Shown in pieces: positions 8,080-45,914 of a stretch of 64,000 bases of DNA. The notes under the pieces were generated by a model. It was not told the DNA's origin. It saw only the letters and a program-made list of their open reading frames with translations, and searched no databases. Where the stretch lies: contig CANGFT010000004.1 of assembly GCA_947453205.1 (NCBI GenBank), forward strand, positions 62,001 through 126,000. The letters run 5' to 3'. The translations under genes were made by a program, and so were the position numbers. The DNA comes from Beijerinckiaceae bacterium (GTDB lineage Bacteria; Pseudomonadota; Alphaproteobacteria; Rhizobiales; Beijerinckiaceae). Position 1 is the first letter of the stretch, and each line of letters starts with the position of its first letter.

Positions 8080-9114
8080 TCAAGGCTTGGGCTTGTAGGG
8101 GCCGAGGTCTTTCAGGGCCGCCGCGACGAAGCTGTCATCGATGATCTGATCGACGGTGACGTCGCCCTTGATGAGCTTCGTTTCTTTGAAATACTCCCAA
8201 TCCCTGCGCAGGCTCTCCGCCCCGACCGTCCCGTCGGGATCGACATAATGGGGGACGATGGAGCGAAGCACGTCCTTGTCCTTGACCGTGGAATAACGCG
8301 CGATGATGTCGACCACGTCTTCTGCGCCCGGCCCCGCAAGGCGTGAATCCTTCAGCGCATCCACATAATCGCGAAGCCCGCGGATATAGGCGCGCATGAC
8401 TTTGCGCGCCACTTCTGGGCGGTTCTTGATGAAGGCGTCGCCATAGACGATGACGCCGCTCACATCGTCGTCGCGCAGTTTCGACATGGGCGTGAGGCTG
8501 ACCACCGTGCCCTGTTTGATCGCGGCGCTGAGGAAGGGTTCGGGCAGGATGCTCGCGTCAAGCGCGCCGCTGGCGTAGGCCGCGACCTGCTGGGGCATGG
8601 ACAACAGGCTCATGTCGAGATCGGCGGAGGAGAGCCCCACCTTGCGCAGGGATTCCTCGATGACGGCGCTTTCATTGCCGCCATTGGCCGTGGTGACGAA
8701 TTTGCGGCCCTTGAGATCCCGCAAGGAGCGCACTGCGCCGCTCTCCCACAGATCCTTGCGCACCACCAGCGCCTGATAGGAATAGTCGCCCTTGTTGCGC
8801 GCCTTGTCGGCGACCGCGCGCATGGTGATGCCGCGCTCGAAGGCGTTGTAGGTGGCCGCATTGATGGCGCCGGAGCCGACGTCGATGTCGCCCGTCGCCA
8901 GCGGAGCGACCATGCGGGCGCTGGAGTCGAAGACGATGAATTTCGCCTCGACATCCTCCTGCTTGAGATAGCCCTTGGCGTCGGCGATATAAAAACCCAC
9001 ATCGGCCGTGCCGCCGATATAGGCGATGTTGACCTTGTCCGCCGCACGCAGGGGCGCAGAGAAGACGCAGGCCGCAAAGGCGCCGACAAGCCCGATCATC
9101 CGACGTTTCAACAT
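8080..9114 (-). CDS. ABC transporter substrate-binding protein (NMT1/THI5/SsuA-like)
   Basis: Signal peptide; VNIAYIGGTADVGFYIADAKGYLKQEDVEAKFIVFDSSARMVAPLATGDIDVGSG typical of the NitT/TauT SBP family. Confidence 0.85.
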   Translation of the reverse strand: MLKRRMIGLVGAFAACVFSAPLRAADKVNIAYIGGTADVGFYIADAKGYLKQEDVEAKFIVFDSSARMVAPLATGDIDVGSGAINAATYNAFERGITMRAVADKARNKGDYSYQALVVRKDLWESGAVRSLRDLKGRKFVTTANGGNESAVIEESLRKVGLSSADLDMSLLSMPQQVAAYASGALDASILPEPFLSAAIKQGTVVSLTPMSKLRDDDVSGVIVYGDAFIKNRPEVARKVMRAYIRGLRDYVDALKDSRLAGPGAEDVVDIIARYSTVKDKDVLRSIVPHYVDPDGTVGAESLRRDWEYFKETKLIKGDVTVDQIIDDSFVAAALKDLGPYKPKP

Positions 9115-9396
9115 GTCATATCCCCCCGCCAGGCCGGTTCCGGCCATTTTCGGGGATGATGCTCTTCCATTCCGCTGATGTCGAGCCTGCCCGTGGAAAA
9201 GCCGGTTTCTCCAAAAAATTCCCTGAGCTTGAGGCTTGAATCCATGCGATTCTTGGCGCTGTTCTCCAGGCCTGATTCGAAAATGCGCCGGGACTCACGC
9301 CCCGTTAACCCTTCTCGGTAACACTATGGTCACCAAGTTCCTTGGTTCACCCCTCGCAGGGCCTGTCTGAGGTTCACGCAAAACACGAGTCGTTGG

Positions 9397-11106
9397 TTGC
9401 TGAAAATGCGTAACCTCAAGATCCGGACCGCCGGAAAATACGCCGGGACCGGCGCCCTGGCCCTGCTGCTGGCGGCGATTTCGCCGACGCGCACCCAGAC
9501 CGCCGTCGCCAATGGCGACACCCGCACCATTCGTCTTCATCATACCCATACCGGCGAGAGCATTCAGGCGACCTTTCGCGTCAATGGCCAATACGATCAA
9601 TCGACGCTGGAGAAGCTGAACTATTTCCTGCGCGACTGGCGCAACGATGAATCCGTGAAAATGGACCCTCGGCTCTTCGACGTTGTCTGGGAGACCTATC
9701 GCGAATCCGGCTCGCAGGAGCCCATCCACGTGGTCTCCTCCTATCGCTCGCCCCAGACCAACGCCATGCTGCGCCGCCGCTCCAAGGCCGTCGCGGAATT
9801 TTCCCAGCACATGCTCGGAAAGGCGATGGACATGCATTATCTGGACGTCCCAATGTCGCGTGTGCGCGAGATCGCCATGCGCCTGCAAAGGGGCGGCGTC
9901 GGCTATTATCCGACCGCTGGCACGCCTTTCGTCCATCTGGACGTCGGCAATGTCAGGGCTTGGCCGCGCATGAGCCAGGACCAGCTTGCGCGTCTGTTCC
10001 CGGATGGCAAGACCGTGCATCTGCCGCCGAGCGGCCAGCCCATGGCGCGCTATGAAGAAGCGCGGGCCGAGATCGAGGCGCGCGGCGGCGCGTCTGTGCC
10101 GACGATGGCGCAGGTGCAATCGAAGGGCTTCTTCGCCTCGCTCTTTGGCGGCGGCGATGAGGAGGAGACAGTCGCCCCCGCGCCGCGCGGCGGGCCGCGC
10201 TCGCGCATGGCCGCTTCTGTCGAGGCCCGCAACCAGCCCAAGGCGGCCATGGCCTCGGTCACGACCTATGACGATGGCAGCTCCGCAACCTATTTCCTGG
10301 CGGAGGCCAATCGGTCCCCGGTCATCCGTCAGGCCGAGCGCAACCTGCCGCGTGGCGAAACCTATGCGGCTCCGGCTCCAGCGCCCGCGCCCGCCCCGGC
10401 GGCGGCGCCCGTCCACAGCGCGCCCGTGCAGACCGCTTTCGCGCCCGCGCCGCCCAGCCGCCCGGCCGAGATCTTCGCCGCCGCCGTCGATCCGCGCGGC
10501 GTGAACGGCGCACCGACCCCGCCACGTCGGCCCACCGACCTGCCGCTGGCGGTGGGCCTCCTCGCCTTCAATGCGCCGCTTCCCCCGACCCGTCCGACGG
10601 AGCTGCGCCCGAGCGCGCTGCCGCGCATCGCCGATTTGCGTCTGGGCGAGCAGCCCGCATCCGAGGCGACCCACATCGCCCGTCCCACGGAGTTGCCGCC
10701 TGTCATCACGGGCGCGGGCGCCGGGCAGCCGTCGGCGCCGCCGCCGGCCCTCGCCTACGCCCCCGTGCAGGAGCCCCCGACCCCCGTAGCCCGGCCCATC
10801 CCTGTCCCGGTCCGTCCCATCGCGCGCGGGCCGGCCCCCCGGTCCGAATTCGTCGCGGCGAAACTCGACCGCGCCACCCTGACGGCCCTCATCAAGACAG
10901 CGTCGGTGGCGGAGCTCACTGCGCCGACCAAGCCGGCTGGCGGCAGCCGGGCGGACTTCACCCGCACGATCTTCGCCCAGCCGAGGCAGGTGGCGGGGGG
11001 CTTCCACAGCGGGCCCGGCGCCTTGTCCACAGACGCCTTCACCGGCAAAGCCGTCGTCGGGGTCACGGCGCGCGACATGACCACGCTCGCCAAACATCAG
11101 GATTGA
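9397..11106 (+). CDS. DUF882 / M15A-like peptidoglycan peptidase with long Pro-rich C-terminus
   Basis: VVSSYRSPQTNAMLRRRS...SQHMLGKAMDMHYLDVP...GTPFVHLDVGNVRAWPR zinc-ligand pattern; C-terminal Pro/Ala-rich repeats. Confidence 0.85.
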   Translation: MLKMRNLKIRTAGKYAGTGALALLLAAISPTRTQTAVANGDTRTIRLHHTHTGESIQATFRVNGQYDQSTLEKLNYFLRDWRNDESVKMDPRLFDVVWETYRESGSQEPIHVVSSYRSPQTNAMLRRRSKAVAEFSQHMLGKAMDMHYLDVPMSRVREIAMRLQRGGVGYYPTAGTPFVHLDVGNVRAWPRMSQDQLARLFPDGKTVHLPPSGQPMARYEEARAEIEARGGASVPTMAQVQSKGFFASLFGGGDEEETVAPAPRGGPRSRMAASVEARNQPKAAMASVTTYDDGSSATYFLAEANRSPVIRQAERNLPRGETYAAPAPAPAPAPAAAPVHSAPVQTAFAPAPPSRPAEIFAAAVDPRGVNGAPTPPRRPTDLPLAVGLLAFNAPLPPTRPTELRPSALPRIADLRLGEQPASEATHIARPTELPPVITGAGAGQPSAPPPALAYAPVQEPPTPVARPIPVPVRPIARGPAPRSEFVAAKLDRATLTALIKTASVAELTAPTKPAGGSRADFTRTIFAQPRQVAGGFHSGPGALSTDAFTGKAVVGVTARDMTTLAKHQD

Positions 11107-43135: not shown

Positions 43136-43795
43136 TCAAGACTTCGCCGCCATGGCCTGAAACAGATTGCCCATGGCGCCGGGCAGCAGCAGCTTCGACT
43201 GAACCGCGGCCTGTTGCTGGGGGGTGAGATAAACAAGTTGCGCGGCCTTCAAGGCGGCGCCCTGCGCCTGCGTGAGGGCCGCGAGCTGGCTCGTGGTCAT
43301 CGCGCTGAACGTGGTCGCCGAGAGCGCGTTCAGCTGCGCGCGGGTGAGATAAGGGATATTCGCGGGCGCGATCTTGGACACTTGAGCTTTGCTGAAGGCG
43401 CCGACCTGCGCGCTCGTCAGCGCCGCGATCTGGGTCGAGCTGAAGGCGCCGATCTGATCGGCTGTCAGGCCCTTGATGGCGGCGGGCGGGATGGCGGCGA
43501 CCTGTTCGCCGCTCAACGCCTGGAGCTGGCTGATCGGCATGTCGGCCATTTGCTGGGGCGAATAAGCCTTGAGCTGGGCGATGGTCGGGGCCGAGGCGCC
43601 GCTGACCGAAGCTTTGTAGGCGGCGGCCGCCTGCGCGGAAATGGAGACCTGAACGGCGGAGGTCGACTTGGCGGCGCTTGATGCGGCGCCCGACTTGGTC
43701 GAAACGGATGCGCCGACCGGAGCAGGCGCGGTCGTCTGCTTCGATCCGGAGTTTGAACCGGAATTCAGGTTGGTGCTGAGATTGCTGATCGTCAT
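43136..43795 (-). CDS. Uncharacterised octapeptide-repeat protein (16 gapless 8-residue repeats)
   Basis: AQLKAYSP QQMADMPI SQLQALSG EQVAAIPP AAIKGLTA DQIGAFSS TQIAALTS AQVGAFSK AQVSKIAP ANIPYLTR AQLNALSA TTFSAMTT SQLAALTQ AQGAALKA AQLVYLTP QQQAAVQS after a Ser/Thr/Ala-rich N-terminus; start at MTISNLST. Confidence 0.8.
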   Translation of the reverse strand: MTISNLSTNLNSGSNSGSKQTTAPAPVGASVSTKSGAASSAAKSTSAVQVSISAQAAAAYKASVSGASAPTIAQLKAYSPQQMADMPISQLQALSGEQVAAIPPAAIKGLTADQIGAFSSTQIAALTSAQVGAFSKAQVSKIAPANIPYLTRAQLNALSATTFSAMTTSQLAALTQAQGAALKAAQLVYLTPQQQAAVQSKLLLPGAMGNLFQAMAAKS

Positions 43796-43919
43796 AGGCG
43801 CCTCTTTGAAGCGCCGCAGCAAATCTCATGCCTACCGCTCGGCCCAGAGGATCACATCGGCGGACAGGTCGCCATGCTGCTCGTCGGGGGGCGTGCACGG
43901 GGCTTGCTCGCCTTCAGCG

Positions 43920-45566
43920 TCATCTGGCGGGCGCTCGCTCGAGGCTGACGGCGTTTCCTGCGCGCACCTCGACTGCGATGCGCGCCAGGATCTCCAGCTT
44001 TTCTGCGCGCGACAATTGGTCGATATGGCTGAGCAGGGCGTCGAAATCGCTGAAGCTGAGGCTCTGGGCCGCAGGATTCGGCACGGCTTCAGCGGGCGGC
44101 GGGGGCTTGGGTTTGGATGACTGCGGCTGCGCCTTTTGGGCGGGCGCCTGCCCGCTCAATAGCCGGGACTCCTCCTGCAGGCGGCGGTAGGCTTCGATCT
44201 CCTCACGCTCAAGCTCAGCCTCGCGATACCGCCCAAGGCCCATGGCGGCGGCCTGCAGCTTCAATTCGACCCGCTCGGCGTCGGTGAGGTCGCCATCGCG
44301 AACCCTCGCGTCGACCAGCGCCTTGAATTGCGCGGAGCGCTCCTGCATCTTCTGCTGAAAGCCGGTCGCCAGAATGCCCGCAGGCAAGGCGACGAGGCCA
44401 AGACCCATCAGCGAAATGATCATGGTCACGAATTTGCCCAGCGACGTCACGGGCGTGATGTCGCCATAGCCCACGCTGAGCAAGGTGATGATGGCCCAGT
44501 AGGTCGCTTCAGGGATGCTCGAGAATTTGTCAGGCTGGGCTTCGTGCTCGACGAGATAGATGATGCTGGCGGCGAAGATCGTCACGGTGAGCGTGGTGAA
44601 GAATGCGGCGCTGAGCGCGGGCGCCTGTTCGCTCACCACCTCCATCAGCGTGGTCATCGCCGTGGAGTAGCGTGTGAACTTGAGCAGGCGCAGAAGCCGG
44701 AAGGCCCGCAAAAAGCGCAGGTCCATCGCGACGACGAAGCTGAGATAGAACGGAAGGATGGACAGGAGGTCGATCAGGGCTATCGGCGTCGCCATATAGC
44801 GCAAACGCTCCATCCAGCCCTCGCCAAAGGCTTTGTCTTCCGGGCAGGACCAGACGCGTGCGACATATTCCAGCGTGAAGACGGCCACGGTGAAATAATC
44901 GAAATAGCGGAATTGCTGCTGCAATGGCGTATGGATCGACTCCACCGTCTCCAGCATGACGGCGGCGACGGACAGAAAGATCAGCTTGCCCATCAGGAGA
45001 TCGAAGACTTCATTCAGACGGCCTGAATATCGGTCGGCGTTAAGCGCGCTATAGACCTTCTGCCGGAAGGTGCGCCTGGCGTTCAGCTTGCGGAATTCGA
45101 TCCAGATGGGACGCAGGCTGCGCGTGATCTTGACAAGGCGCACCAGACGCAGAAAGCGCAGATCGACGACGGCCTCAAGCGGAATGAAGAAGGGCAGGAT
45201 GACCACAAGATCAAGCAAGGCCATCGGCGATGACAGATAGCGCAGGGTGGGCAGGCGCTTGTCCTTGTAGCGGCGCTGCAAGCCCCCGCTCAGCGCGCGC
45301 AACACATATTCGATCACGAAGATCGCGATCGTGACATCGTCCAGGATGCTGAGGATCGCGAGGACGCTCACGTCGAGGGGAATCGTATGTTCGAGCAGAA
45401 GCGACAAAAGGCTGACGACGATGGCCACATTGACGATGTGATTGGCGTAGAGGCTCGGCGCATGACGGGGATTGTCGACGAACAAGGCAAGATGCAGCTT
45501 GCGTCGAAACGTCAGGAATTGTCGGTCCCGCAGCGCCTTCGCCGACTTGCCCATGATCGCCCCCAC
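43920..45566 (-). CDS. Predicted voltage-gated K+ channel with two tandem voltage-sensor domains and one pore
   Basis: Two S3-S4 blocks: RYLSSPMALLDLVVILPFFIPLEAVVDLRFLRLVRLVKITR and RYMATPIALIDLLSILPFYLSFVVAMDLRFLRAFRLLRLLKFTR; selectivity filter TLLSVGYGDITP; TM-rich. Confidence 0.88.
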   Translation of the reverse strand: MGAIMGKSAKALRDRQFLTFRRKLHLALFVDNPRHAPSLYANHIVNVAIVVSLLSLLLEHTIPLDVSVLAILSILDDVTIAIFVIEYVLRALSGGLQRRYKDKRLPTLRYLSSPMALLDLVVILPFFIPLEAVVDLRFLRLVRLVKITRSLRPIWIEFRKLNARRTFRQKVYSALNADRYSGRLNEVFDLLMGKLIFLSVAAVMLETVESIHTPLQQQFRYFDYFTVAVFTLEYVARVWSCPEDKAFGEGWMERLRYMATPIALIDLLSILPFYLSFVVAMDLRFLRAFRLLRLLKFTRYSTAMTTLMEVVSEQAPALSAAFFTTLTVTIFAASIIYLVEHEAQPDKFSSIPEATYWAIITLLSVGYGDITPVTSLGKFVTMIISLMGLGLVALPAGILATGFQQKMQERSAQFKALVDARVRDGDLTDAERVELKLQAAAMGLGRYREAELEREEIEAYRRLQEESRLLSGQAPAQKAQPQSSKPKPPPPAEAVPNPAAQSLSFSDFDALLSHIDQLSRAEKLEILARIAVEVRAGNAVSLERAPAR

Positions 45567-45569
45567 GAC

Positions 45570-45914
45570 CTAGCGCGCGCGCCGCCCCGTGACCTCGCAT
45601 TCATCCGTCCGCTTCCCGCCATTGGCGAAGTGATAGGTGATCGAGGCTGTGAAACGATAGACGAAAGTATAGTCCCATCCCCTGTTGCCGAGCGTGCCCA
45701 GAATGGTGACGACGCCATTTTCGCTCTTGAGATTGCGGATATGGAACTGGGACGCATTGCCATCGATGATCGAGACGAGGCTCGGCGGATCATCATCATA
45801 CCTGAGTTCATAGGTGCGGGGCCCGTCCTTGCAGGTCATCAGGAGCACGGTCGCGTGAGCCGTGGAGGCCGCAAGGCCGGCGAGGATCGTTGCGAGGCGA
45901 AGAAACAAGCGCAT
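45570..45914 (-). CDS. Small secreted protein of unknown function
   Basis: 114 aa, signal peptide MRLFLRLATILAGLAASTAHA; stop 3 bp upstream of the channel ORF start. Confidence 0.65.
   Translation of the reverse strand: MRLFLRLATILAGLAASTAHATVLLMTCKDGPRTYELRYDDDPPSLVSIIDGNASQFHIRNLKSENGVVTILGTLGNRGWDYTFVYRFTASITYHFANGGKRTDECEVTGRRAR

Follow-up and report, generated by a model that had tools for sequence, protein, structure and literature searches.

The window analyzed here is a stretch of 64,000 nucleotides from a Beijerinckiaceae bacterium, and the channel gene lies on its minus strand, reading from a GTG at position 45566 to a stop at 43920, with an in-frame ATG at residue 5 (45554) as an alternative start. 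The encoded protein scores above the cut-off for Pfam PF00520 and PF07885 and consists of two voltage-sensor domains (VSD1 and VSD2) in tandem, a single K+ pore domain, and a tail (table 1). The small gene directly upstream is likely to be cotranscribed with the channel gene; their association is not conserved, and homologues of the 114-aa protein in two other genomes do not lie beside tandem channels in the stretches read. Downstream, on the same strand, an open reading frame for 228 amino acids with short repeated motifs (LTxxQ-AALS-like) occupies positions 43136-43822.

Table 1. Features of the channel locus, in window positions; residues are those of the channel protein.
Feature	Position	Strand	Details or basis
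Tandem-VSD K+ channel gene	43920..45566	-	548 aa; Pfam Ion_trans twice, Ion_trans_2 once
VSD1, S1-S4 (residues 36-161), with F83, E86, D119	45084..45461	-	AlphaFold, PDB match of residues 1-160, conservation
S4 of VSD1 (residues 136-152), with R137, R140, R143, K146, R149, R152	45111..45161	-	Sequence, comparison with relatives
Conserved linker, S4 of VSD1 to S1 of VSD2 (residues 162-183, N-RRTFRQK...)	45018..45083	-	Conservation, AlphaFold
VSD2, S1-S4 (residues 184-299), with F230, E233, D266; R284, R287, R290, R293, K296, R299	44670..45017	-	AlphaFold, conservation
S4-S5 linker and pore domain S5-P-S6 (residues 302-421)	44304..44663	-	AlphaFold; PDB matches KCNQ and Kv4 over ~165-420
K+ selectivity filter SVGYGD (residues 364-369)	44460..44477	-	Sequence; kept across the family
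Cytoplasmic C-terminal tail (residues 422-548), helical, weakly conserved	43923..44303	-	Conservation, AlphaFold
114-aa protein, probably with a signal peptide, encoded 3 nt before the channel start	45570..45914	-	ORF and neighbourhood comparison

The original prediction, made from sequence alone, had claimed two copies of S2-S4, each S4 with six basic residues at every third position and each copy with the S2 Glu and S3 Asp of a charge-transfer centre, only the second copy leading into a pore with an SVGYGD filter. All of this held: every quoted motif was found at the right coordinates, the acidic pairs are E86/D119 and E233/D266, each S2 also carries a Phe, and runs of six register-spaced basics begin solely at R137 and R284. 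When the protein was shuffled 100,000 times, at least one run of this kind arose in only 97 cases, which places two S4 runs in one protein far beyond chance. The two VSDs are homologous across S1-S4 (phmmer E 8.8e-20; segment BLAST identities 30-42%), and a PDB search with residues 1-160 alone finds KCNQ voltage sensors, among them the isolated KCNQ1 VSD (6mie).

An AlphaFold2 model calculated from a 39-sequence alignment (mean pLDDT 81.9, pTM 0.68) shows two four-helix bundles and one pore, with ten transmembrane (TM) helices and one pore helix, where about ten and a re-entrant loop had been expected. S1 of VSD1, for which no motif had been quoted, was located at residues 36-61, followed by S2 (66-96), S3 (114-127), and S4 (136-161); the second S1 spans 184-206, followed by S2 (209-243), S3 (261-278), and S4 (283-297), and the pore domain comprises S5 (315-340), the pore helix (351-363), and S6 (375-421). 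There is no pore between VSD1 and VSD2, and the first block is a four-TM VSD; a first block of any other kind would have refuted the prediction. It should be noted that filter residues 366-368 fall below pLDDT 50, and that a monomer model cannot position VSD1 relative to a tetramer. A PDB fold search with the model returned single-VSD channels (KCNQ, Kv4, Kv1, Kv2, and Shaker) at TM-scores, by query length, of ~0.24-0.36.

To collect relatives, one genome from each of 85,462 species was scanned with peptide patterns, which gave 221 confirmed relatives; the best 80 were fetched, and the VSDs of each gene, the window's own genome included, were counted with profiles for the VSD and for the pore. 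This search for homologues of the same architecture yielded 78 distinct VSD-VSD-pore genes, and sequence, model, and these genes together show the layout to be S1-S4, S1-S4, S5-P-S6. It is found on dozens of independent contigs, and since it is also present in the complete single-contig genome G414 and in cultured strains of Polynucleobacter (three isolates, L049, L053, and L056) and Gemmobacter, a frameshift or a chimeric assembly can be ruled out. Five genes from the Hyphomicrobiales (L002-L006, ~700 aa) encode a VSD-VSD-VSD-pore protein, and all three VSDs retain the full set of sensor residues, as in the 696-aa example at L004:5932-8022.

The fetched relatives are labelled Pseudomonadota, mostly alpha- and betaproteobacterial, except for a few metagenome-assembled genomes (MAGs) with uninformative or doubtful labels; many look, judged by their names, like lake or pond MAGs. 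The tandem-VSD channel is rare overall: in 397 evenly sampled genomes of Pseudomonadota, with few candidates scored per genome, full-length tandem matches occurred only in the window's genome and G414. Within the window's genus, ~10 of 36 other genomes had tandem-type matches, judged by identity and open-frame length. Phages and plasmids yielded no full-length tandem gene except a divergent one on a plasmid of Gemmobacter aquarius HYN0069 (WP_159082572.1), annotated merely as "ion transporter" and lacking some of the S4 basics. Three of the four Ion_trans genes in the window's genome are tandem-VSD genes, namely the window copy and two on a different contig (C19); the fourth has a single VSD and the filter TTTGYGD. 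In a single-VSD paralogue in G414 (L125:1498-2715(-)), the inter-VSD linker motif (RSFRQK) is retained close to the N-terminus, as a loss of VSD1 would leave it.

Mean pairwise identity over the 78 two-VSD proteins is 53% for VSD1, 60% for VSD2, and 72% for the pore, and the SVGYGD-type K+ filter is conserved in the family. In VSD1, all 78 proteins have the Phe and Glu of S2 and the Asp of S3, and 76-78 of them have each of the S4 basics; these sensor columns are more conserved than the rest of VSD1 (permutation p ~2e-5). This family-wide conservation of the sensing residues is the best evidence, although indirect, that VSD1 senses voltage, which we regard as likely but which is inferred from sequence without electrophysiology. 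The conserved S1 acid of VSD1 is E59, and the linker between the VSDs, with a prominent RTFRQK, is about as conserved as VSD1 (51% vs. 53%).

Phylogenetic analysis of 76 VSDs placed the first VSDs in one clade (96/95) and the pore-proximal VSDs in another (83/93), and showed the extra VSD of the three-VSD proteins to derive from the VSD1 lineage. The separate clades therefore show one old duplication, followed later by a second one giving three VSDs, with the reservation that the trees are based on few columns. A recent internal duplication is ruled out by these separate clades, the repeats at the DNA level being only short. The later origin of the third VSD from the VSD1 lineage suggests that selection varies the number of sensors. 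The family's VSD2 and pore are set apart from the sampled ordinary Kv channels at 100/99.

In the tree, the VSD1 sequences of the window and of L001 are neighbours of the first VSD of the three-VSD genes, as would be expected had the middle VSD of a three-VSD ancestor been lost; this is possible but not established, and the alternative survives an AU test (p 0.121). No end branch in the tree is longer than that of the window's VSD1 (1.74). Anchored on the post-S4 PxW.EF motif, the S4 of this VSD1 (DLRFLRLVRLVKITRSLRP; L001, for example, has DLRFLRLVRLLRLAKLARFIVP) falls three residues, or one turn of helix, short of those of the relatives compared on its outer side. The Arg that is outermost in the family is missing, and an additional Arg lies further in, R152, because of which six basics are still present. 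Given the long branch and the lost Arg, the voltage range or the function of the window copy may be drifting.

Immediately upstream of the channel gene, and in most cases overlapping it, 52 of the 82 multi-VSD loci carry a gene whose product has one TM helix and an extracytoplasmic domain (e.g., L029:5186-5899 and L089:10600-11262(-)). This domain contains four conserved Cys; the protein has no relative in Pfam, NCBIfam, or the PDB, and its model is confident (pLDDT 85.6) without a PDB fold match. A pilin-like reading of its long helix and strands gained no support, with no PDB fold match at E below 0.3. Both tandem copies on C19 have this upstream gene and the window copy does not; the window's 114-aa protein, considered as its equivalent, shows no profile similarity to it. 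Downstream of the tandem gene, several betaproteobacterial loci have one or two single-VSD genes with altered filters, TITSGYGN and TIISGWGN, which are shorter by one residue ahead of GYG/GWG (L029:7614-8543 and 8540-9475; also L047, L059, L061, L078, and L079); these genes apparently form an operon with the two-VSD gene. In four loci, in islands with several channel genes, a Nav-like gene with the filter TLESWAD lies immediately upstream of the tandem gene (L010:5108-5956, L011:5033-5887, L020:5069-5896, and L021:2864-3715; the L010 ORFs overlap by 4 nt). A PDB comparison, made for one of these Nav-like proteins, gave bacterial Nav structures at E 1e-71, which we take from their entry codes to be NavMs and NavAb; a reading of one protein as "VSD-only" was discarded, as it is such a NavMs/NavAb-like sodium channel.

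The window protein fulfils the sequence and topology criteria of a Kv channel: an S1-S4 VSD followed by S5-P-S6, a filter of the (T/S)VGYGD type, and S4 basics together with the S2 Phe/Glu and S3 Asp. It shares the S4 pattern, the charge-transfer centre, and the GYGD filter with single-VSD Kv channels (KCNQ/Kv7, Kv4, Kv2, Shaker, and bacterial six-TM Kv), and residues ~165-420 align with KCNQ5 (E 7e-30) and Kv4.2. However, Kv channels have one VSD per pore domain, whereas this protein has two VSDs and one pore, making it a variant and not a standard member. Polypeptides with more than one VSD include TPC1/2 and the four-repeat Nav/Cav channels; these duplicate the whole six-TM unit, whereas here the VSD alone is duplicated, and the two six-TM repeats with two pore loops of a TPC-like channel are not found, there being only one pore. 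Hv1 and Ci-VSP resemble VSD1 in having a VSD with no pore directly after it, but VSD1 is joined to an entire Kv unit, and its S4 has the six charges of the Kv type. Hv proton channels are characterized by a three-Arg S4 and an S1 Asp selectivity residue; VSD1 has six S4 basics and the acid E59 in S1, although no comparison with an Hv profile was made. The bacterial Nav filter type TLESWS is absent, the filter being SVGYGD. NCBIfam NF040645 (K_channel_Meth, a hyperpolarisation-activated voltage-gated K+ channel), a single-VSD model of 203 positions, matches VSD2 and the pore only weakly (57 bits against a 300-bit cut-off).

No solved structure or family model with the VSD-VSD-pore layout was found, nor any description of it in the open-access literature searched (titles and abstracts; preprints and most subscription journals were outside the scope), and to our knowledge no characterized channel has it. 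An already characterized class would likewise have refuted the prediction, and none was found in these searches. The tandem-VSD family of freshwater bacterial channels is apparently an undescribed variant of Kv channels.

We favour, at a probability of about 0.6, a Kv-type tetramer with eight sensors in which VSD1 is working and modulates gating. VSD2 and S5-P-S6 would form an ordinary depolarisation-activated Kv module, tetrameric around one K+ pore, with VSD1 as a second genuine sensor at the periphery; the predicted count of eight sensors presupposes a tetramer, which is assumed by analogy with Kv channels. A helical extension of the VSD1 S4, together with the conserved linker (LN-RTFRQK), would tie VSD1 to S1 of VSD2, a plausible mechanical path, through which voltage-driven movement of that S4 may bias VSD2 and hence the pore, so that activation would be shifted, steepened, or given an added step. 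That VSD1 might gate VSD2, as had been suggested, stays a possibility. The tetramer, opening polarity, K+ selectivity in practice, and the coupling of VSD1 to VSD2 or the pore are inferred from Kv channels, and the movement of VSD1 is likewise an inference, with no electrophysiology; conserved sensor residues would also be expected if VSD1 moved uncoupled from the pore.

This last point supports a first alternative, in which VSD1 responds to voltage for a purpose of its own (conducting a leak or protons, for instance, or signalling to a partner protein) without gating the K+ pore: its sensor residues are conserved without direct evidence of coupling, and the one-TM partner encoded upstream in many relatives could read VSD1. 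We consider this unlikely, since the S4 has the six-basic Kv pattern and not the three Arg of Hv channels (again without an Hv-profile comparison), the PDB matches are KCNQ sensors, and the partner gene is absent beside the window copy. Alternatively, VSD1 may be mainly a structural or assembly module replacing the Kv N-terminal domain, its voltage response being irrelevant; it occupies the place of the N-terminal assembly domains of other Kv channels, and the window's VSD1 diverges fast. This too is unlikely, as it leaves unexplained the invariant S2 Phe/Glu and S3 Asp and the near-invariant S4 Arg/Lys across 78 genes at 53% identity. Coassembly with other subunits such as tandem paralogues, with a varying sensor number and no native homotetramer, could be supported by the three tandem genes of the window's genome and by the apparent betaproteobacterial operons with SGYGN and SGWGN subunits, but is improbable here: no channel gene adjoins the window gene, the other two copies are on a different contig, and there are no interaction data.

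Sensor number and contribution are usually studied by mutating four-sensor channels. The natural series of one, two, and three VSDs on one pore would allow a direct test of the effects of sensor number on gating charge and steepness, as well as of sensor-to-sensor coupling, and the two-VSD form has cultured hosts. The family further suggests elaborate sensing of membrane potential in some freshwater bacteria. A bolder reading, which we would not yet back over its negation, is that of a freshwater proteobacterial clade with two or three working VSDs per pore (8 or 12 sensors), to which some lineages would have added a dedicated accessory subunit, one-TM and rich in disulfides, as well as altered-filter partners and a Nav channel in the same island, together forming a kit for electrical signalling in which evolution varies the number of sensors.

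The single-VSD channels with a TTTGYGD filter have an unusually long stretch between VSD and pore (L010:3797-4930(-), L078:9525-10808(-), and, in the window's genome, G000:C10:84586-85353), and their genes are often found on the opposite strand next to channel islands.
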